Of a stretch of 33,429 nucleotides of DNA, positions 4,315 to 13,402 are shown one piece after another. The stretch covers positions 1 through 33,429 of the IMG/VR virus record IMGVR_UViG_3300046820_001817; one strand, 5' to 3'. Positions within the stretch are counted from its first letter, which is position 1; each line of letters opens with the position of its first letter. The DNA is from a virus. The notes beneath the pieces are model-generated. The model saw only the letters and a program-made list of their open reading frames with translations. It made no database searches and was not told the DNA's origin. The translations under genes and the position numbers were made by a program.

Positions 4315-4355
4315 TTTTGCTATACTCATGGCATCAAACCGAAAGGCAAAATCAT
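4311..4355 (+). promoter_or_regulatory. Extended -10 promoter candidate enclosed by a 10-bp inverted repeat
   Basis: ATGATTTTGC (4311-4320) and GCAAAATCAT (4346-4355) are exact inverted repeats flanking TATACT (4321-4326). The TG at 4318-4319 makes an extended -10 (TGCTATACT); no good -35 is seen. The right arm contains the start codon of the next gene (4354), and its AAAGG Shine-Dalgarno lies at the edge of the loop. The element could be an operator over a promoter or an RNA hairpin that masks translation start. Confidence 0.4.
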
Positions 4356-4671
4356 GACAGCAGCAGTAATACCAAAGGCATTTGATTACGGAATACCAGG
4401 CGGTACCTACATGGCAACGCCTACGTTTAGCATTGTCGATAAGGCAGGGCAATGGTTTTGTACCAGCATGAGTAATGCCCAGGTAGGTACGCAATTTGGC
4501 ATACATGTTTGGTACCGTACGAGCATGCAGGCATCATGGCAGCTGTTGCGATTTAAAGACGGCTGCCACGGTAATTTAACGCTGTTGCAGGGCAAATTGT
4601 ATTTTGTCGTGAACAATAAAAACGGCTCGATTACTGCCGAGCAAATTGAACGATTTCAGGGGCTGGCATGA
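4354..4671 (+). CDS. Hypothetical protein upstream of amidase
   Basis: This 105-residue protein has a beta-rich pattern of alternating hydrophobic segments (WQLLRFKDGCHG, NLTLLQGKLYFVVNN) and overlaps the amidase gene by four bases. A promoter-like inverted repeat overlaps its start, so it may be the first gene of a lysis or late transcription unit. I do not recognise a family. A structural or wall-associated role is possible but unsupported. Confidence 0.6.
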   Translation: MTAAVIPKAFDYGIPGGTYMATPTFSIVDKAGQWFCTSMSNAQVGTQFGIHVWYRTSMQASWQLLRFKDGCHGNLTLLQGKLYFVVNNKNGSITAEQIERFQGLA

Positions 4672-5159
4672 TCATGCTAGAAATGAACGTACCAGCAACT
4701 AGCACAGGCGGCAAGCGTAGCAGCGCGCCTACCGTTATCGTATTGCATCATACGGCAGGGAGCGGCAACGCGGCTGCCGAGGTAGAGTATTTGCGAGAGA
4801 ATCCGCGCGGGGTATCGATACACTACCACGTAGCAAAAAACGGAGCTCGTACGCGTATGGTGCCTGATGACGTGATTGCATTCCATGTAGGTTTAAGCAA
4901 AGTAGGCAGCCTCGGCGCGCCAAACGCTGCCAGCCTCGGAATTGAAATCAGCAACACGGGCAGCAAAACAAAACCCGATCTATACCCAGCTGAGCAAGTA
5001 GCAAGCGTAGCAAGCATTGTGGCAACCTGGCTAAAGAAATACCCAGGCATTCAGATGATTACCAGCCACGCGGGCATAGATACCAAGGGCAAATACGATC
5101 CGTATAATTTTCCATGGGCTGATTTTTGGCGCCTGGTGGGTAAGGCAGTAAACGAATGA
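4668..5159 (+). CDS. N-acetylmuramoyl-L-alanine amidase (Amidase_2 / PGRP fold endolysin)
   Basis: This 163-residue protein matches the type-2 amidase family of T7 lysozyme, zinc enzymes that cut the bond between N-acetylmuramic acid and L-alanine in peptidoglycan. The motif VLHHTAG places the first zinc ligand at H27. The SHAGID segment gives H134, and KYDP gives K142 and D144, matching the Lys-x-[Cys/Asp] pair of the family. There is no added wall-binding domain and no signal peptide, so export would depend on the holin-like genes immediately downstream. ATGA overlaps link it to both neighbours. Confidence 0.9.
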   Translation: MIMLEMNVPATSTGGKRSSAPTVIVLHHTAGSGNAAAEVEYLRENPRGVSIHYHVAKNGARTRMVPDDVIAFHVGLSKVGSLGAPNAASLGIEISNTGSKTKPDLYPAEQVASVASIVATWLKKYPGIQMITSHAGIDTKGKYDPYNFPWADFWRLVGKAVNE

Positions 5160-5404
5160 GCGAAACGATAGAGGTAAAAGTTGCACGTATTGAGGAAAAA
5201 GTAGACCAGTTGCTACGATTAAGCCGAGCAAATGAAACGGCAATCAAGGCAAACGAAATCGAAATGCGAGCCGAGGTGAAAGAGCTAGCAACCAAACTGG
5301 CAGGCCTCGAGCAATCAATCAGCAAGATTTGGGGAGGCGTTGCAGCAATTGCAAGCCTGATCAGCGTTATTATGTGGCTCGTTAATAGGATGGTGCAACC
5401 ATGA
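5156..5404 (+). CDS. XhlA-like coiled-coil membrane protein (holin-associated)
   Basis: This 82-residue protein has a charged heptad-repeat region (about 1-55, with EVKVARIEEKVDQLLRL) followed by one C-terminal transmembrane segment (about 57-76, GGVAAIASLISVIMWLV). This is the layout of the haemolysin XhlA family, which works with a holin and amidase to lyse Bacillus-type hosts. It overlaps the amidase and the next small membrane gene, forming a compact lysis cassette. The assignment rests on architecture and position rather than a decisive motif. Confidence 0.65.
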   Translation: MSETIEVKVARIEEKVDQLLRLSRANETAIKANEIEMRAEVKELATKLAGLEQSISKIWGGVAAIASLISVIMWLVNRMVQP

Positions 5405-5583
5405 CAGCAAAACCCTGGTACAAATCTAAAACTATCTGGCTGAATATCATCATTGCTATTGCAACAATGACCATGATTCTTGCAGGCAATGAATACTGGG
5501 CACGGTATGCCGAGCCGCTGTTAATGATCAACGCGCTCGCTAATGCAGCCTTGCGTATTATCACTAGCGAAAGAATCGAGTAA
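5401..5583 (+). CDS. Small membrane protein, putative holin
   Basis: This 60-residue protein has a KPWYKSKTIW N-terminus followed by hydrophobic segments at about 11-30 and 38-53, and ends in a charged tail (ITSERIE). Short proteins of this type with an N-terminal K-W-Y-x-S-K-T-x-W motif are common next to phage endolysins and are often called holins. It overlaps the XhlA-like gene by ATGA. It would let the leaderless amidase reach the wall; direct proof is absent. Confidence 0.6.
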   Translation: MTAKPWYKSKTIWLNIIIAIATMTMILAGNEYWARYAEPLLMINALANAALRIITSERIE

Positions 5584-5587
5584 CAGT

Positions 5588-6223
5588 ATGAGCGATGAAG
5601 AAATTTTGCCGTTGATCGGCAGGGCAAAAAAGAAACCAGGCAGGCCGCGGAAGAAACCCGAGCTATTAATTAAGCAGCCTAGGCCGCGCGGCAGGCCTCC
5701 CAAGCTCGAGAGCATGAAACCACAGAACAAGCAGGCATCACGCGCGTATATACGGCCTGATACGATCATTCTCAAATACAGCGATGGACGCGAGGCACGT
5801 ACAACAAATTTAGACGTTGATGCCTGGTTACCAGTGTTTATAAAGCACCTCAGTTTGTGGGGTAATGTAACAGCCGCTGCCGAGTATGTGGGTATCAGCC
5901 GTAAAACGGCACGCAAGGCGTATAACGAGCGGCCTGATGTACGCGAGCAATGGCACGACGCAATAGAAGAGGCTGCCGAGCGCCTCGAAATGGACGTATC
6001 AGAGCGCGCGCGTAAATCCGATTTGCTGGCTATGTTCTTACTCAAGGGGTTAAAGCCTGAAAAGTATCGAGAGAAATACGAGGCGCCTGCTAGCCAGGTA
6101 GCTAATGATTTTATCGTAGAAATAGGTAACGAACCTGTTAGACAACTTGCAGAATTCCAACCCAGTACGTTTGTTGAAACAGACCGAATCGACAGCGCCA
6201 CAACTCGCATTCTTCCGGAGTAA
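5588..6223 (+). CDS. Terminase small subunit-like protein
   Basis: The product from ATG 5588 is 211 residues. An in-frame upstream ATG (5543) lies inside the holin-like gene and is rejected. Residues about 15-45 contain two AT-hook-like GRP cores (KKPGRPRKK, RPRGRPPK), and the central part has a helix-turn-helix (NVTAAAEYVGISRKTARKAY) followed by a helical region, as in small terminase subunits that recognise the packaging site. Its 3' end overlaps the large terminase frame by 77 bases. Position and HTH support the call; the tandem AT-hook-like N-terminus is unusual. Confidence 0.72.
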   Translation: MSDEEILPLIGRAKKKPGRPRKKPELLIKQPRPRGRPPKLESMKPQNKQASRAYIRPDTIILKYSDGREARTTNLDVDAWLPVFIKHLSLWGNVTAAAEYVGISRKTARKAYNERPDVREQWHDAIEEAAERLEMDVSERARKSDLLAMFLLKGLKPEKYREKYEAPASQVANDFIVEIGNEPVRQLAEFQPSTFVETDRIDSATTRILPE

Positions 6224-7334
6224 TGCCAGATTTCGCGCGTTTATCGGTGGACGCGGCAGCGGCAAAACCAGGGCAGGCGTTGTTGAGGTGTTGCGGCAGC
6301 CAGCAAACAGCACAGGCATGATCATTGCGCCTACCAATGCCATGCTACGCGATGGCGCGCGCAAAATGTTGCTAGACATTGCACGCAAGGCAAAAATACT
6401 GGTACAGGAAAACATCAGCACTGGCACAATCAGGCTGCATGGCAATCGTATTATTTTGCTACGCTCGGCAGAAAATCCCGAGCGGTTACGCGGTGCTAAC
6501 CTCGGCTGGCTATGGGTAGACGAGGCAGCATTAGTGCCTATAGCTACCTGGACAATTGCTATTGCAACGTTGCGAGAAGAGCCAGCACGCGCCTGGGTGA
6601 CAACAACACCACGCGGCCGCGATTGGATTTACGAGCTGTGGACGTCAGGCGATCCGGATTACGAAATCATACACAGCAAAACCGCTGATAATGTATTTTT
6701 GCCTGATTCATTTCTCAACACGCTGAAAAAATCCTATACCAGCGAGCAATTTAGGCAAGAGGTAGAAGGCGAATTTGTCGACATGGCAGGCGCGCTATTT
6801 AAACGGCAATGGTTTCAAATTGTCAATAGAGCACCTGATGGGCTTGCATGGTTTCGGTATTGGGATACTGCCACGAGTGTTCGACAGACAGCAGACTATA
6901 CAGCCAGCGTACGCGTTGCATTTGATGATACGGGAGTCATGTACATTGCAGACGGCATACGCATTAAAGCTGAATTTCCTGACGTGAGAAAAATCATGGT
7001 AGATACCATGAAATTAGAACAATACGATACTATGCAAGGGATCGAGCAAGCACAGGCAGGGTTAGGCGCCTTGCAGGATATTCGACGAATGCCAGAGCTT
7101 GCAAACATCAGCCTGCAAGGGTATGTAGTAACTCGCGACAAAATGCAACGGGCAATGCCCTGGGCAGTGCGAGCCGAGCAGGGTTTAATACGAGTAGTGG
7201 CAGGCGATTGGGTTAGCCAGTTTATTGATGAGTGTTTGTCATTTCCAAACGGGCAGCATGATGACATGGTAGACGCGGTTTCGGGTGCTGTCGAAATGCT
7301 CGCTACAGGGCAAGTGTTGTACGATTTCATCTAG
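6147..7334 (+). CDS. Terminase large subunit
   Basis: This 395-residue packaging motor and nuclease has a Walker A GGRGSGKT at 34-41 and a Walker B ending in WLWVDEA near 121-127. The C-terminal RNase H-like nuclease has acidic residues at D240 (YWDTATS) and in the QHDDMVDAV motif (370-377). The start is uncertain: TTG at 6147 gives the family-like lead (PQLAFFRSNARFRAFIGG) while overlapping the small subunit. It hydrolyses ATP to drive DNA into proheads and cuts the concatemer. A length near 400 is typical of shorter terminases. Confidence 0.92.
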   Translation: MQNSNPVRLLKQTESTAPQLAFFRSNARFRAFIGGRGSGKTRAGVVEVLRQPANSTGMIIAPTNAMLRDGARKMLLDIARKAKILVQENISTGTIRLHGNRIILLRSAENPERLRGANLGWLWVDEAALVPIATWTIAIATLREEPARAWVTTTPRGRDWIYELWTSGDPDYEIIHSKTADNVFLPDSFLNTLKKSYTSEQFRQEVEGEFVDMAGALFKRQWFQIVNRAPDGLAWFRYWDTATSVRQTADYTASVRVAFDDTGVMYIADGIRIKAEFPDVRKIMVDTMKLEQYDTMQGIEQAQAGLGALQDIRRMPELANISLQGYVVTRDKMQRAMPWAVRAEQGLIRVVAGDWVSQFIDECLSFPNGQHDDMVDAVSGAVEMLATGQVLYDFI

Positions 7335-7354: not shown

Positions 7355-10309
7355 ATGGAATTTAAAGCAATCGAGGCAATACCAGGCTGGTATAGCATTG
7401 CCAAAAAGGCAGGCGAGCTATACGGCACATTGGATGCATACGAAAAAGTACCAATGTACTATCGTGCTATCAACTTGCGAGCAGATGCATTAGGTACCGT
7501 ACCGTATGAATTGACGCGAGCTGGCAACGCTGTTGATTATCCATTTACTACCCCATTAGAAAACCTCATACAGCAGACAGAACGCGCGCTCATGTTGACA
7601 GGGCGGGCATTCTGGCTGCGCTTGTATCGAGGTCGTGTACTGTACGGTTTTCAATTCCTAAATCCGCGATCTATTGAGGTAACTTATCATCCTGAAAAGC
7701 AGCAGGGTGCTGATTACATGACGGGCCTAACGTTTACCCAAAAAATCGACGGGCAGGTACATGCCGTTTGGACTATTGCAGACGTTGTATATTTTCACGA
7801 GCCGAGCATTAAAACCGATATTAACGAAGAAGTATCACCAGCAAAAGTAGCACTACAATCTGCCCAACTTGCGTATTACCTCGAGCGGTTTGCCTCGGCA
7901 TTTTTTGAACACGGTGCACAGCCTGCATTGGTGTTGAGCCTAGATAAATCTATTACGCCTCCCGAGCTCGAGCGAATGAAAAGCCATTGGACGCGATACG
8001 TAGAAAACGTATCCAACGCGTTTAAAACGTTCTTTTTTCGCGGCGATGTAAAAGCACAAATTGTGACATTTCCATTAGACCAGATGGATATGGTACCAAT
8101 TCAAGAGCGCGCGGTAATGAACATTGTTTCGACATTTGGCGTACCACGTACGATGATCGAGGCAAGCGCTGCCAACTATGCAACAGCAGACAGTGACCGG
8201 CAATCATTTTGGCGTGAAACGATTGTGCCACGCCTGGCATTCTATGAACGGGTATTGAATGAGCAACTATTTAAGCCATTAAAATATCAGTTTCAGTTTT
8301 TACCTGAAAAACTCGACGTGTTTCAGGTAGATGAAGCAGCGCGCGCGAATTCGCTTGTGCTATTGGTGCAAGCAGGCTTGCCATTGGCTGCAGCAATGAA
8401 ACAGCTAGGCTATGAAAACATCGAAGAGGCATTAGGGTTGCCATTGCCTCAAATAATTGACAATGACGGCGGGGTTAACGTTGATACAAATACGCCTGTA
8501 AACTCGCAACAGAACGCGGCACCTGATGAGGTTGTTGCAATCGATAACGCGGCAGGCAAGCGCGTTGCAGAGCTCGAGAAATACGAGGCAAAAGCACTGG
8601 CACGGTTTAAGCCAGGCAAGAGCGCTGCCGTGAAATTTACCAGCGACGTACTGCCAGGGTATCTGCTGGATTACATCGATAGCGAATTAGAGAGCGTAAA
8701 AAAAAAATCTGAAATCATAGCGGTGTTTGCTTCCGTCAAATTGGGTTATGCCGATATGACGCCAGGGGAGCAAAAAGTATACAAGGCAATCGTCAAGAAG
8801 CTCGAGAAACGCAACGAGGATATTAGCCAAAAGATTGTAGCGGGTGACTATAGCGGTATCGATACGGATTTACGGGGCATACTTGACAAATTCGTAGCTG
8901 ATACCGTTTTAGCAGCAGGTGCCGAGCGCGTAACACCAATACGCGGCATGGCTGATGAACAATCAGCGGCACTTATTGAGCAAGGCATTAAGCAGCACGG
9001 GAAAACGTACCTTGATCAGTACTGGAATCCGTTTTTACAGGATTTAAGCGCTACCGAAAAGAGCTACATTGACAAAGTAATAGCAGATTACATGGTAACG
9101 CCTGGCAATGGGCAAACCGATGTAATGCAGCAGCTGTCAATGTTTGGGCAGCTACGTGCCAGCCGTATTGCATTCACGGAGCCAACGCGCGCGGCATCAC
9201 AGCAGACGTTGCAGATATTCAATAACGCGCGCGCGGCAGGTATCAACGTTGTACGCATTTGGAATACCGAGAAAGATAGAAAAGTATGCCAGATGTGCCA
9301 AGAGCTGGACGGCTTAACCGATGACCAATGGCAGAGCGTGTACAAAGGCGATCAGGACATCATGCAGGGTGCACCAGCGCATGTAAATTGCCGTTGTGAT
9401 ACGGGTATTGATTACGTTGCAGAGGTAACACAGCCAGCCGAAACGCCTGCCGAGGTGTTGACGGTAGACGAAGCAACTGCACCAATTCCAACACCAACAC
9501 AGGTGCCATTGCTGCAGCGTGATGCTGCCGAAATTGCACAGCATATTAGAGACGCGGTGCCTGCTGATTTGCTGCAAGATGTTGCAGAAATCAAAGCCTG
9601 GGGACAAGGCGGCTCTACTCAATTGTATGATCAGGTAATGCAACATGCATTTGGAACACCAGAATATGATGCAGCATTTGCAAAATACTTAGCTGAAGGT
9701 AAACGTATTTATGGATTACAAAATACGATAGCTCTAAAAGAAGAACGCGTATATAAAACATTGTTGCAGGATTTGCGACATCCTACACCAGCAACAGCGG
9801 TATTAACATTCACAGGTAAAACAACTGCAGCGCAACGCGCAAGAATTACCGAATTAGTACAGGCGACCGTAGGCATTGCGCCTGATAACGGTACACCAAT
9901 TGCAATTACAGTAAGGGCAACATCATCTATAGGCGGGAGCATGGGCGGCGGCGTAATGACAATAAACAGGGAAGCAACTGCATCAACAATAGTACACGAA
10001 TCATTGCACGGACTGCAACAACATCAGCAATACGGCAACGCTGCAACAGATGCATTTGCAGCAATTCGTACGGCTGGAGAAAAACCGGTAAAGTTGTCTT
10101 CTACTGGATTCAGCAACGGTGGTAATACATATGTAGACAACACTGATTCTGGTTATACATTCCGCATTTATAAAAATAGACCTGCTGACTATGCAAAATT
10201 TCCTGAAGTGCTAACAACGGCATTTGATCACATTTCAAATAAGCCTGCAGCAAAAGACAAAGAGCTATTAGAGCTGTTTGCCCAAATAGTAAAGGATGGC
10301 GGCAAATGA
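7355..10309 (+). CDS. Portal protein fused to MuF head-morphogenesis domain and C-terminal zincin-like domain
   Basis: This 984-residue protein combines three parts. Residues about 1-375 match HK97-type portal proteins (YRAINLRADALGTVPYEL near the start). Residues about 590-690 match the Mu gpF/SPP1 gp7 domain, with C645-x2-C648 and HVNCRC at 676-681. The C-terminal part contains HESLH at 881-885, the HExxH zinc-metalloprotease motif, with E951 (PEVLTTAFDHI) as a candidate third ligand. From roughly 9610 the DNA uses GAA for Glu more often and lacks the GCCGAG/CTCGAG words common elsewhere, hinting at a separate origin. GAGGT precedes the ATG. MuF proteins with C-terminal toxin domains are known; fusion to the portal itself is unusual. 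Confidence 0.85.
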   Translation: MEFKAIEAIPGWYSIAKKAGELYGTLDAYEKVPMYYRAINLRADALGTVPYELTRAGNAVDYPFTTPLENLIQQTERALMLTGRAFWLRLYRGRVLYGFQFLNPRSIEVTYHPEKQQGADYMTGLTFTQKIDGQVHAVWTIADVVYFHEPSIKTDINEEVSPAKVALQSAQLAYYLERFASAFFEHGAQPALVLSLDKSITPPELERMKSHWTRYVENVSNAFKTFFFRGDVKAQIVTFPLDQMDMVPIQERAVMNIVSTFGVPRTMIEASAANYATADSDRQSFWRETIVPRLAFYERVLNEQLFKPLKYQFQFLPEKLDVFQVDEAARANSLVLLVQAGLPLAAAMKQLGYENIEEALGLPLPQIIDNDGGVNVDTNTPVNSQQNAAPDEVVAIDNAAGKRVAELEKYEAKALARFKPGKSAAVKFTSDVLPGYLLDYIDSELESVKKKSEIIAVFASVKLGYADMTPGEQKVYKAIVKKLEKRNEDISQKIVAGDYSGIDTDLRGILDKFVADTVLAAGAERVTPIRGMADEQSAALIEQGIKQHGKTYLDQYWNPFLQDLSATEKSYIDKVIADYMVTPGNGQTDVMQQLSMFGQLRASRIAFTEPTRAASQQTLQIFNNARAAGINVVRIWNTEKDRKVCQMCQELDGLTDDQWQSVYKGDQDIMQGAPAHVNCRCDTGIDYVAEVTQPAETPAEVLTVDEATAPIPTPTQVPLLQRDAAEIAQHIRDAVPADLLQDVAEIKAWGQGGSTQLYDQVMQHAFGTPEYDAAFAKYLAEGKRIYGLQNTIALKEERVYKTLLQDLRHPTPATAVLTFTGKTTAAQRARITELVQATVGIAPDNGTPIAITVRATSSIGGSMGGGVMTINREATASTIVHESLHGLQQHQQYGNAATDAFAAIRTAGEKPVKLSSTGFSNGGNTYVDNTDSGYTFRIYKNRPADYAKFPEVLTTAFDHISNKPAAKDKELLELFAQIVKDGGK

Positions 10310-10533
10310 AAATGCGCATTACTCGAAGTGATGAACAATCTACCTATAACGAGGCAACTGGGTTATTTATTGGGGACGAACAATTAACAGAATTCCTAAA
10401 CTTGTATATATCTGTTTTTGGTGATGTTGGAAACAATCCATTTGAACGTTTATTGACTCAAACAGAAGGTTTTCATTTGACTATTACCGAATACAAGCCA
10501 GACGAGTACCCAGAAGGTACGTTAGACGTATGA
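10306..10533 (+). CDS. Small acidic protein coupled to the portal fusion
   Basis: This 75-residue protein overlaps the end of the portal-MuF-zincin gene by ATGA and the next gene in the same way. It is clearly acidic (about 15 Asp/Glu against 5 Lys/Arg) with no recognised domain. Its AT-leaning base use matches the C-terminal zincin-like part of the fusion rather than the genome core, suggesting both arrived together. By analogy with MuF polymorphic toxins it could be a cognate immunity or chaperone protein, but this is inference from position and charge only. Confidence 0.6.
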   Translation: MKMRITRSDEQSTYNEATGLFIGDEQLTEFLNLYISVFGDVGNNPFERLLTQTEGFHLTITEYKPDEYPEGTLDV

Positions 10534-11000
10534 CAAAAATTATTATCGAAAACGCTGCCCTGCATTTAACCGAAAAGATGCGGGCAGCACAGCAAACAGC
10601 AATGGCAACCATTGCAGACATAGCCAAAACGCGACTCAATAAGGAAAAGCCTCCCGAGCCAGAGCCAGGCAGCATGAAATGGGTAAGCGACAAACAAGAG
10701 CGTTTTGTTAAACGCATGTTTGCTATGGGCAAAATGAAAAAGTACGTACGCGGCCGCGGCAACGGTTTGCCCTGGCAGCCCAGCAAAGCACTCAATAATT
10801 CATACGTGATTATGAAAGAGCAAATTGGGGAGGTATCAATTATCAGTACTGCAGCGTACGCGCGGTACGTTGTCGGAGAGGAACAAAGCCAGATACACAG
10901 AGGCAGATGGAAAAAGGGTAGCGAGGTAGCACAGGAATTGTTAGATTCGGGTGTTATCAGCAAAATCATACAGGATGCAATAGCAGGCGCGTTGAAATAA
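10530..11000 (+). CDS. Putative head-tail connection / HK97 gp10-like protein
   Basis: This 156-residue protein has a helical N-terminus, a Pro/Glu-rich linker (PPEPEPG), and a segment with the pattern YARYVVG-x-x-QS-x2-HRGRW near residues 110-128. That resembles HK97 gp10-like or virion morphogenesis proteins that complete the tail or neck. It lies just after the portal fusion instead of near the tail tube, which weakens the call. A hairpin covers its stop codon. It could equally be an uncharacterised minor head protein. Confidence 0.5.
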   Translation: MTKIIIENAALHLTEKMRAAQQTAMATIADIAKTRLNKEKPPEPEPGSMKWVSDKQERFVKRMFAMGKMKKYVRGRGNGLPWQPSKALNNSYVIMKEQIGEVSIISTAAYARYVVGEEQSQIHRGRWKKGSEVAQELLDSGVISKIIQDAIAGALK

Positions 11001-11026: not shown

Positions 11027-11056
11027 CTGACTAATAGGTAATGAAGAGGTAACACT

Positions 11057-11860
11057 ATGGCAGGCAGCAGACACAGTGCAAGCGATGTACAACTAATCAA
11101 GGCAGCTCGGAAGGCTGTAATGGATCATGCAACAGCAACGGCACAACATGCCGAGGCAATGAAAACCATGTTTGCAGATTTGGGCGATGACCTGAGCGAC
11201 GATGACGCAATGGTAAACAGCACGGGTACCGAAACCGACGCGGTACGCGCTGAAAAGAGCGTAAAAGCGGTAGACCTGCCAGGGCAATTGCGCGAAATCC
11301 TAGGCGAAACGATTTGCTTATGGTACAAGGCATCTGCAGCGCATTGGAATTTAGAAGGCGATGATTTTCCACAGTATCACGCATTTTTTGGCGAAATGTA
11401 CGAGACACTCGAGGCGGGCATTGATCCAACTGCCGAATACATTCGCGCGCTCGGATTCAAAACGCCTGCAACCATTGCACAGGCAACGGCATACCAGCTG
11501 GCTGATACCCTTACCGATGAATCACCATTACCGGTAATGCTTGCGAGCATCACGCTCGACAATATGCGAATGATTGACCTGCTGCAAGGCGGCATTTATT
11601 TTGCAGGCATTGCAGGTGAGTATGCAGTACAGAATTTCTTACAAGATCGCCTGGGCTATCATCAAAAGCTACGTTGGATGTTGCGAGCAATCCAAACACC
11701 TACACCAGAAATGCCAGAAATCGAAGAGCCAGGCGAAATGATTGCCGAGGCTGAACCGATGGAAGGCACCGAGGTAATGGCTGAATCAATGCCGCTCGAG
11801 GTATCGAAATCAGCACGCAACCTGGCAGCTGATTTGCTGTATGTATTGCGAGGTAAGTAA
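11057..11860 (+). CDS. Dps / ferritin-like protein in the head module
   Basis: This 267-residue protein contains a Dps-type four-helix domain at about residues 74-215. The Dps signature is intact: HWNLEG begins at H96, with H108, D123 and E127 at exactly the H-x11-H-x14-D-x3-E spacing of the ferroxidase centre, followed by IRALG. Dps proteins oxidise and store iron, and some bind DNA. It is flanked by an N-terminal acidic helical region (about 1-73) and a Glu/Pro/Met-rich C-terminal tail (about 216-267), both longer than in cellular Dps. It sits between portal and capsid genes behind its own promoter-like element (RBS GAGGT). A virion role is plausible. Confidence 0.85.
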   Translation: MAGSRHSASDVQLIKAARKAVMDHATATAQHAEAMKTMFADLGDDLSDDDAMVNSTGTETDAVRAEKSVKAVDLPGQLREILGETICLWYKASAAHWNLEGDDFPQYHAFFGEMYETLEAGIDPTAEYIRALGFKTPATIAQATAYQLADTLTDESPLPVMLASITLDNMRMIDLLQGGIYFAGIAGEYAVQNFLQDRLGYHQKLRWMLRAIQTPTPEMPEIEEPGEMIAEAEPMEGTEVMAESMPLEVSKSARNLAADLLYVLRGK

Positions 11861-13402
11861 ATGGCAGTAAAGGCAATCGGGGATTTTACGCTAAAAGGCA
11901 AGGGCATTGTATTCGGCGGCAAAGATTTGCAAGGCGATACATTTACCAAAAATACAGACCTGGGCGAAACGCGCTCGTTTGTCGGTATGCCTGTGTACTA
12001 CGATCACAGCCTAGGCGATTTGCGGCGGCAGATTGGTACCGTCAAGGCCTGGCAGCCTGATGATGATGGTATTGACGTTGAAATAGAGTTAGATCGACGC
12101 GACAAGTATGCAGCACAAGTGATGCAACTGGTAAAGCGGGGAGCGCTCGGGTTATCAACGGGCAGCCTGCCTCATTTGGTCGTGCGAGAAAATGGCGAGC
12201 TGAAACGATGGGTAGTAGGCGAAATCAGCCTAACACCAACACCAGCCGAGCCACGGACAACGGCATACAGCGAAGCTAAGCGGGCACCACAGGCGAATAG
12301 CGGTGCTCGAGCGTACGCGCTTGCATATAGTATTGAGTTACCAAAAGAGGTATCAGGTATGAACAAGGAAGAATTGAAGGGCGCTATGTTGGAAATCCTC
12401 GAGGAATCTGTAGGCACGCCAGTTGCAGGCGGCGGCGTTGTGGCAACCAAGGCACCAGCTACCAAGAAGCTTACGAGCCTGGGTTTTAGCAACGAAGGCA
12501 ATGAGGCAATTGTTCACTACATTAAAACCGGTGATGACATTGCAGCAAAAGCAACTTTGGTAGAAGGCACGGGCGCAAACGGTGGCTATACCGTACCTCG
12601 CGATTTCTATACCCAAATTATTGACAAGCGCGATCAATCCTGGATTGGTGCAAAACTGGGCATTCAGCGGTATACCACGGATCGCCAGATTTTTGACATT
12701 GCAGATCAGAATGGTAAATCCAATTTCGCGTTTGTTGCTGAATCAGGCGCGGCAAATTTCGACGAACCAACATTCTCACAGTCTGCAGTTACGGTGTACA
12801 CTGCCTCGCTCGCTATGAAGGTTTCTAATCAGCTGTTGCGTGACAACGCAATGGATCTGGAAGGGTTTCTTACTCGCGAAATCGGGCGCGCGTATGCTCG
12901 GCACCTTAATGATTACATGATTAACGGCACGGGCTCGAGCCAGCCATACGGTGTTCTTACTCGTGCAACCGTATCTGAAACTCTTGCGAGCGTTTCAGGC
13001 GTTGACCAGGCAGACATTATCAACATCGTACACAAGCTGCCGAGCTGGTACGCTGATGATGGCGCCTCGACGGGCTGGGTAATGCAAAACAGCACGCTCG
13101 GTGCTATTCGCGCGTTGCAGGGCAATTTCTTCAGCTTCCAACCAACACCACAGGGCACCATGGACAGCTTGTACGGCAAGCCGATTGCTATCACTGACAA
13201 GATTGCAGTACTGGGCACGGGCAACAAGCCTATCATTTTCGGCAATTGGGGATACTATGCATTTGTCGAAAACCTCGGGCTCGAGATTTCGCGCAATCCA
13301 TACGTATACCAGCCAAATTACCAAACTGCCATTTTCGTAACGGCACGTTGGGGCGGCGACGTTACGCAGGCCGAGGCGTTTGTTTATGGCGTGAATCCGT
13401 AA
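11861..13402 (+). CDS. Prohead protease fused to HK97-fold major capsid protein
   Basis: This single 513-codon frame encodes two proteins normally made separately. Residues about 1-140 match HK97-type prohead proteases: H49 (YYDHS), S99 in GLSTGSLPH, and the EISLTPTPAEPRT segment near the third catalytic residue. From residue 167 the sequence is an HK97-fold capsid: a helical delta-like scaffold (NKEELKGAMLEILEES), then VEGTGANGGYTVP, the E-loop region, and a C-terminal P-domain with TARWGGDVTQAEAF. The protease would cleave the delta region and itself during maturation. An internal in-frame start may also make capsid alone. Confidence 0.9.
   Translation: MAVKAIGDFTLKGKGIVFGGKDLQGDTFTKNTDLGETRSFVGMPVYYDHSLGDLRRQIGTVKAWQPDDDGIDVEIELDRRDKYAAQVMQLVKRGALGLSTGSLPHLVVRENGELKRWVVGEISLTPTPAEPRTTAYSEAKRAPQANSGARAYALAYSIELPKEVSGMNKEELKGAMLEILEESVGTPVAGGGVVATKAPATKKLTSLGFSNEGNEAIVHYIKTGDDIAAKATLVEGTGANGGYTVPRDFYTQIIDKRDQSWIGAKLGIQRYTTDRQIFDIADQNGKSNFAFVAESGAANFDEPTFSQSAVTVYTASLAMKVSNQLLRDNAMDLEGFLTREIGRAYARHLNDYMINGTGSSQPYGVLTRATVSETLASVSGVDQADIINIVHKLPSWYADDGASTGWVMQNSTLGAIRALQGNFFSFQPTPQGTMDSLYGKPIAITDKIAVLGTGNKPIIFGNWGYYAFVENLGLEISRNPYVYQPNYQTAIFVTARWGGDVTQAEAFVYGVNP
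12346..12361 (+). promoter_or_regulatory. Internal ribosome binding site and ATG at the capsid part of the fusion
   Basis: AGAGGT (12346-12351) lies seven bases before an in-frame ATG (12359-12361), codon 167 of the fusion. The same GAGGT-type site precedes the starts at 7355, 11057, 15186 and 18452. Initiation here would yield a 347-residue protein beginning MNKEELKG, exactly where a capsid delta domain would start. This could supply excess capsid over protease. Confidence 0.5.

Follow-up and report, generated by a model that had tools for sequence, protein, structure and literature searches.

The window, a virus record of 33,429 bases, carries genes for a terminase, a portal/Mu-F fusion, a protease-capsid fusion, a head-tail connector, and a tape measure protein in tailed-phage order, as identified with Pfam and PHROG families. 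The gene under study lies among the head genes of this record (Table 1). The preliminary description had located it between the portal and capsid genes, and the position stands with two corrections: two small genes (10306-10533 and 10530-11000) separate it from the portal gene, and what follows it is not a simple capsid gene but a fusion of a head maturation protease to the major capsid protein. Within this fusion, ~100 residues separate the protease from the capsid fold, a stretch that could be the capsid's own scaffold. We use the term slot for the position between o10530 and the protease-capsid gene, abutting or overlapping the latter, which is where the window gene is found.

Table 1. Features of the head gene region in the window and of the Dps-type slot protein that it encodes
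Feature	Residues	Position	Strand	Basis or remark
Terminase large subunit		6147..7334	+	Pfam Terminase_6N and _6C
Portal protein fused to Mu-F-like domain		7355..10309	+	Pfam Phage_portal 4.3e-34, Phage_Mu_F 4.6e-8
Conserved gene o10530		10530..11000	+	Precedes the slot protein in nearly all relatives reaching that far
Probable ribosome-binding site, GAGG		11046..11049	+	Shine-Dalgarno-like, 7 nt ahead of the ATG; predicted from sequence
Dps-type slot protein gene	1-267	11057..11860	+	ATG start, 267 aa; remnant of a head-assembly protein plus Dps ferritin domain
N-terminal RHSxxD helix	1-48	11057..11200	+	Homologous to the same segment of HiPIP-type slot proteins
Linker	49-72	11201..11272	+	Low model confidence
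Dps four-helix core	73-213	11273..11695	+	Pfam/PHROG, AlphaFold2, Foldseek
Ferroxidase residue H96	96	11342..11344	+	Alignment, spacing
Ferroxidase residue H108	108	11378..11380	+	Alignment, spacing
Ferroxidase residue D123	123	11423..11425	+	Alignment, spacing
Ferroxidase residue E127	127	11435..11437	+	Alignment, spacing
Acidic P/E/M-rich linker, variable	214-245	11696..11791	+	Alignment, low pLDDT
C-terminal helix	246-267	11792..11857	+	~[KR]xxARxLLxxx, pattern common to most complete slot proteins
Head maturation protease fused to HK97-fold major capsid protein		11861..13402	+	Pfam Phage_capsid 1.5e-47; N-terminal protease PHROGs

The TAA stop codon of the slot gene abuts the ATG of the protease-capsid gene, and the slot and capsid genes of the relatives examined overlap by one to a few bases. 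Such stop/start junctions are conserved, and the one in the window suggests that the two genes may be translationally coupled. No cellular or prophage relative was found in tblastn scans of genome contigs. Further upstream, the C-terminal part of the portal/Mu-F protein contains a zinc-metalloprotease-like HExxH motif (HESLH, residue 881, window positions 9995-10009), and the L030-type relatives stop short of that region (L numbers designate other viral contigs).

Residues 77-212 of the slot protein match the Pfam family Ferritin (PF00210) with an E value of 5.6e-14 and 52.7 bits, above the gathering cut-off of 24.5, and the Dps family PHROG 3636 (phrog_3636) is matched at E = 5e-24. The AlphaFold2 monomer model, built on an alignment of 41 sequences (a version using 8 close relatives gave a pLDDT of 37 and was discarded), predicts a four-helix bundle of residues 73-98, 104-131, 158-186, and 189-213 with a short helix in the BC loop (140-143) and a core pLDDT mostly >90; outside the core, it places an N-terminal helix at residues 8-41 and a C-terminal helix at residues 251-264. 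The top PDB matches of this model in Foldseek are all Dps proteins, with Dlp-2 first (1jig, TM 0.92), followed by TpF1, S. aureus Dps, and others. H96, H108, D123, and E127 align column for column with the solved Dps PA0962 (8ff9) and with Vibrio cholerae Dps, and the four residues are invariant across the 41 viral Dps sequences of the alignment. Their spacing, H-x11-H-x14-D-x3-E, occurs nowhere else in the six frames of the window and arose in 10 of 20,000 shuffles of the protein. Five measurable comparisons gave dN/dS values of 0.04 to 0.12 for the core, equivalent to strong purifying selection. The preliminary description, which proposed a Dps-like ferritin in the capsid module with a complete ferroxidase signature at exact Dps spacing, is therefore borne out by the profile matches, the residue positions, and the neighboring head genes, and the bundle that it anticipated is the one that the model predicts. 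What the protein shares with the Dps family (PF00210, phrog_3636; 1jig, 8ff9) is the bundle, the BC-loop helix, the ferroxidase residues with their spacing, and an adjoining Trp, but its core is flanked by an RHSxxD helix and a C-terminal helix that belong to a phage head protein. We regard both the homology and the architecture as secure: the Dps domain encoded at 11057-11860 is real, and the architecture in which it is found is new.

Where do the two flanking segments come from? The preliminary description had correctly recorded N- and C-terminal extensions, but they are homologous to another phage protein and not to Dps tails. Scanned by themselves against Pfam and PHROG, the extensions yielded nothing credible, tblastn of the N-terminal extension against phage genomes gave no match, and the relationship was found via intermediate relatives. 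A profile made only from HiPIP-type proteins, which have no Dps domain, matches the N terminus of the window protein at E = 9e-9, compared to 0.097 for the best of 2000 shuffles. Since a Dps-less slot profile matches this end, the extensions are leftovers of a conserved slot protein; the C-terminal helix is linked to slot proteins by its alignment pattern only. The N-terminal helix has dN/dS values of 0.14 to 0.23. Among the close relatives (n = 17), those with complete ends keep the N-terminal RHSAxD...LGDD and the C-terminal LLYVxRG helix, and their acidic linkers are variable. Dps-type DNA-binding tails were considered as another origin of the extensions and rejected because the extensions match HiPIP-type slot proteins that lack Dps; compared to cellular Dps, no Lys-rich tail of the Dps type was recognized in the window protein.

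The slot protein of relatives consists of a phrog_2859 domain, the RHSxxD helix, a four-Cys HiPIP-like domain, an accessory domain, and the C-terminal helix. More distant relatives (L027-L036 and L072) are 333 to 445 aa long where complete, and most of them have a phrog_2859 domain (E values of ~1e-17 to 1e-20) N-terminal to the RHS segment and a DRNATP...PETRNF domain C-terminal to Dps. Neither the window protein nor its close relatives have these two domains, so the window protein is a reduced derivative and not a full slot member, and their loss from this lineage indicates that the slot protein tolerates change. An origin of the window form by loss of the phrog_2859 and DRNATP domains fits these architectures as a putative order of events. 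L097 encodes in the corresponding position, after its homologue of o10530 and ahead of the protease-capsid gene, a 369-aa protein with a phrog_2859-type N-domain, the RHS segment, the DRNATP domain, and the C-terminal helix but no Dps, and L037 has a free 142-aa Dps gene directly before a 378-aa slot protein without Dps.

The preliminary description missed that Dps stands here in the place of the HiPIP-like domain. This middle domain is ~80 aa long and has a cysteine pattern, C-x2-C-x7..13-C-x12-C-x2-W, that is intact in 51 of 53 distinct segments; of the remaining pair, one ends before the motif, and one is without the later cysteines. HiPIPs are the top three PDB matches of its profile (3h31, E = 5.4e-5; 1hpi, 0.0053; PioC, 0.037), and Pfam HIPIP is matched by 8 of 11 members, at best with 2.5e-5. 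Single sequences tried alone score below the Pfam HIPIP cut-off, hence the wording HiPIP-like. The distinct slot proteins collected comprise 65 with the HiPIP-like domain, 27 with Dps, none with both, and 3 truncated ones with neither, counts that describe searches seeded with the HiPIP and Dps types and not all phages. No third kind of middle domain was found among the slot proteins collected from these two seeds.

HiPIP-type and Dps-type phages can otherwise be very similar. L131 and L150 (HiPIP type) share with L031 (Dps type) 95 to 97.5% identity in TerL, 88 to 91% in the portal protein, 91 to 97% in the preceding gene, and 89 to 98% in the capsid protein, of which the L131 contig has only the first 123 residues. 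Their slot proteins are 87% identical over residues 1-143, and the middle domains are unalignable. Judged from these sequences, Dps and HiPIP-like domains are exchanged between near-identical phages, in places recently. Could the pairing of two iron-linked domains be a coincidence? The slot might take any small domain, and the four-Cys domain might bind zinc or be a disulfide knot, which would suit the subthreshold scores of single sequences and the general readiness of many phage structural genes to accept passenger domains. The HiPIP matches of the profile and of most members, the retention of the four cysteines, and the lack of a third middle domain, even allowing for how the searches were seeded, weigh against this explanation, which we consider unlikely.

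In the portal tree, the HiPIP group of L124, L131, and L150 nests within the Dps-type clade; the domain type must therefore have changed at least twice, which suggests that the HiPIP-like domain of these three phages is a reversal by recombination. In the Dps tree, the Dps sequences associated with slots all group together on a single branch (support, 95/89), and the free L037-type neighbor genes are sister to all fused Dps (98/92); L174, with a branch of >5 changes per column, was left out of the final tree. This topology fits a history in which Dps would have arrived once as a neighbor gene and then been fused.

All four ferroxidase residues are kept in 26 of the 27 distinct fused Dps, five of which have an inter-histidine loop longer by one residue. 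L174 (5995-7311) encodes a fused Dps-like domain without any ferroxidase residues, on a very long branch and with the slot flanks kept, meaning that not every member requires ferroxidase chemistry. As Dps typically assembles into 12-mers, the domain might serve as an oligomerization module whose shell is an internal core or scaffold, with iron chemistry incidental. Conservation of the flanking helices and the fusion in L174 would agree with such a structural use, but it does not account for the ferroxidase residues kept in nearly all fused Dps and throughout the alignment of 41 viral Dps, and the small HiPIP-like domain that fills the same place would not give the same scaffold. The ~100-residue region of the capsid gene may, moreover, already supply one. 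A purely structural function thus appears improbable, and a partly structural role is possible, since one divergent relative has lost the ferroxidase residues.

Modules of the slot protein also occur fused to head maturation proteases in other phages. The phrog_2859 domain is present in the prohead protease of HGTV-1, and in one annotated capsid maturation protease of DSL-LC01, and S-CBS3 and CRP-406 have it within their capsid polyproteins. In DSL-LC01, a different protein annotated as a capsid maturation protease has a HiPIP-like module at its C terminus. Ten viral-contig proteins were picked from the results of the HiPIP-like search; each of them matches a head maturation protease or major head protein family, and nine have the HiPIP-like motif. 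The tenth, in L200, joins a Dps domain, complete in its four ferroxidase residues, to the front of a head maturation protease (phrog_15531, E = 1e-17) and is encoded directly downstream of a gene with a phrog_2859-like N terminus and a HiPIP-like domain. This Dps-protease fusion is independent of the slot Dps and lies in an unrelated phage. Three BFVD proteins named "prohead protease" have Dps-like folds. The phrog_2859 domain of these protease accessory modules (HGTV-1, S-CBS3, CRP-406, DSL-LC01, and L183-L246) is common to the intermediates L027-L036, which in turn share the RHSxxD segment and the C-terminal helix with the window protein; the window protein differs from the protease modules in having lost the phrog_2859 domain and in having Dps where they have the HiPIP-like domain.

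Dps in phages is already known, and such genes are usually filed as host-stress helpers. They were reported in Lactobacillus phages, where Dps lies close to replication and repair genes and is read as stress protection (PMC6669764), the Dps of Gratiaviridae and gut phages is treated as a stress gene (PMC8008677), and a freshwater survey lists ferritin among phage oxidative-stress genes (PMC6802176). The window Dps shares with those of Gratiaviridae, gut, and Lactobacillus phages a putative iron/oxygen role but differs in being a ferritin built into a head-assembly protein. The window gene may nevertheless be an auxiliary gene of this host-protective kind, whose product counteracts reactive oxygen in the infected cell's cytoplasm and whose location in the head module reflects only late expression. 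Freshwater and gut phages have many ferritin, Dps, and other oxidative-stress genes interpreted in this way (PMC6802176, PMC8008677), free-standing Dps genes are common in phages, and L037-type phages hold Dps as a separate gene at the same place. Host protection leaves unexplained why Dps is fused in frame to the conserved ends of a head-assembly protein, why it replaces a middle domain, and why a second Dps was independently fused to a protease in L200, and we find it rather unlikely. In the open-access literature searched, no paper was found that deals with a fusion of Dps to a head protein, with phage heads containing HiPIP-like domains, or with an exchange of the two; nor did the literature searched discuss the HiPIP-like domain, widespread as it is in phage sequences and often located in head maturation proteases.

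We favor, as moderately probable, the reading that the window gene encodes a head-assembly protein with an exchangeable iron domain, here Dps, that joins the procapsid and sequesters or oxidizes iron close to the packaged DNA. The preliminary description had suggested a role in the virion or in assembly, and this is strengthened, since the two extensions represent conserved ends of a slot protein of head assembly. The RHSxxD helix and the C-terminal helix would attach the slot protein to the assembling procapsid, and the Dps domains would form their usual dimers or dodecamer. Cellular Dps oxidizes Fe(II) preferably with peroxide; in the window protein, the ferroxidase centers may use peroxide or oxygen to oxidize Fe(II) for storage, so that Fenton-active iron would be kept from the DNA during packaging or in the particle. 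The capsid-linked protease may cut or release the slot protein at its linkers, and the protein could be removed at maturation rather than kept in the head. In sister phages, the HiPIP-like domain would do a related iron/redox job, and the swap suggests that the heads of some phages may incorporate an iron-handling part that is interchangeable. Were the domain to enter the head, capsid assembly or virion survival would involve iron chemistry.

The arrangement resembles that of encapsulins (PMC6668986, PMC8346489), in which a ferritin-like protein is likewise encoded beside the gene of an HK97-fold shell and the cargo bears a conserved C-terminal peptide on a flexible linker. By this likeness, the C-terminal helix of the window protein on its variable linker is suggestive of a shell-targeting peptide, as far as its sequence and model indicate. 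Membership among encapsulin cargo proteins was considered and rejected: the shell in the window is that of a genuine phage, which has terminase, portal, and protease-capsid genes, and the likeness is one of analogy. Carriage of the domain into the head would offer a parallel to how encapsulins, with their HK97-fold shells, acquired ferritin cargo. A broader proposal, which we put forward tentatively and with more doubt than belief, is that tailed-phage heads have a dedicated iron/redox module that can be exchanged and is tethered to the head maturation machinery, most often a HiPIP-like domain of the [4Fe-4S] kind and in some lineages a Dps ferroxidase, and that the procapsid is an iron-managing compartment in which the genome is protected while being packaged or once in the particle. 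Were it true, it would be a viral parallel to ferritin-loaded encapsulins with the same HK97 shell fold.

Relatives of the HiPIP-like module are encoded in at least 550 viral stretches. Diverse phages have HiPIP-like four-Cys modules inside their head maturation proteases or protease-capsid polyproteins (L183, L184, L186, L187, L191, L211, L223, L238, and L246), and HiPIP-like modules were also seen as stand-alone genes of ~115 to 129 aa (L193-L195, L198-L199, L201, L205, L214-L216, L218-L219, L231, L236, and L254), several of them on contigs of >100 kb. In many other viral contigs (among L042-L054, L056, L061-L071, L085-L086, and L256-L335), a free Dps gene of ~144 aa immediately precedes the gene of a T4-like large terminase, and 23 of the 82 Dps open reading frames in the last contig set have such a terminase gene within 60 bases, a second recurrent association of Dps with a packaging gene. 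In L089, a 553-aa gene with a DUF6321 domain (4327-5988) is located directly upstream of a free Dps gene.
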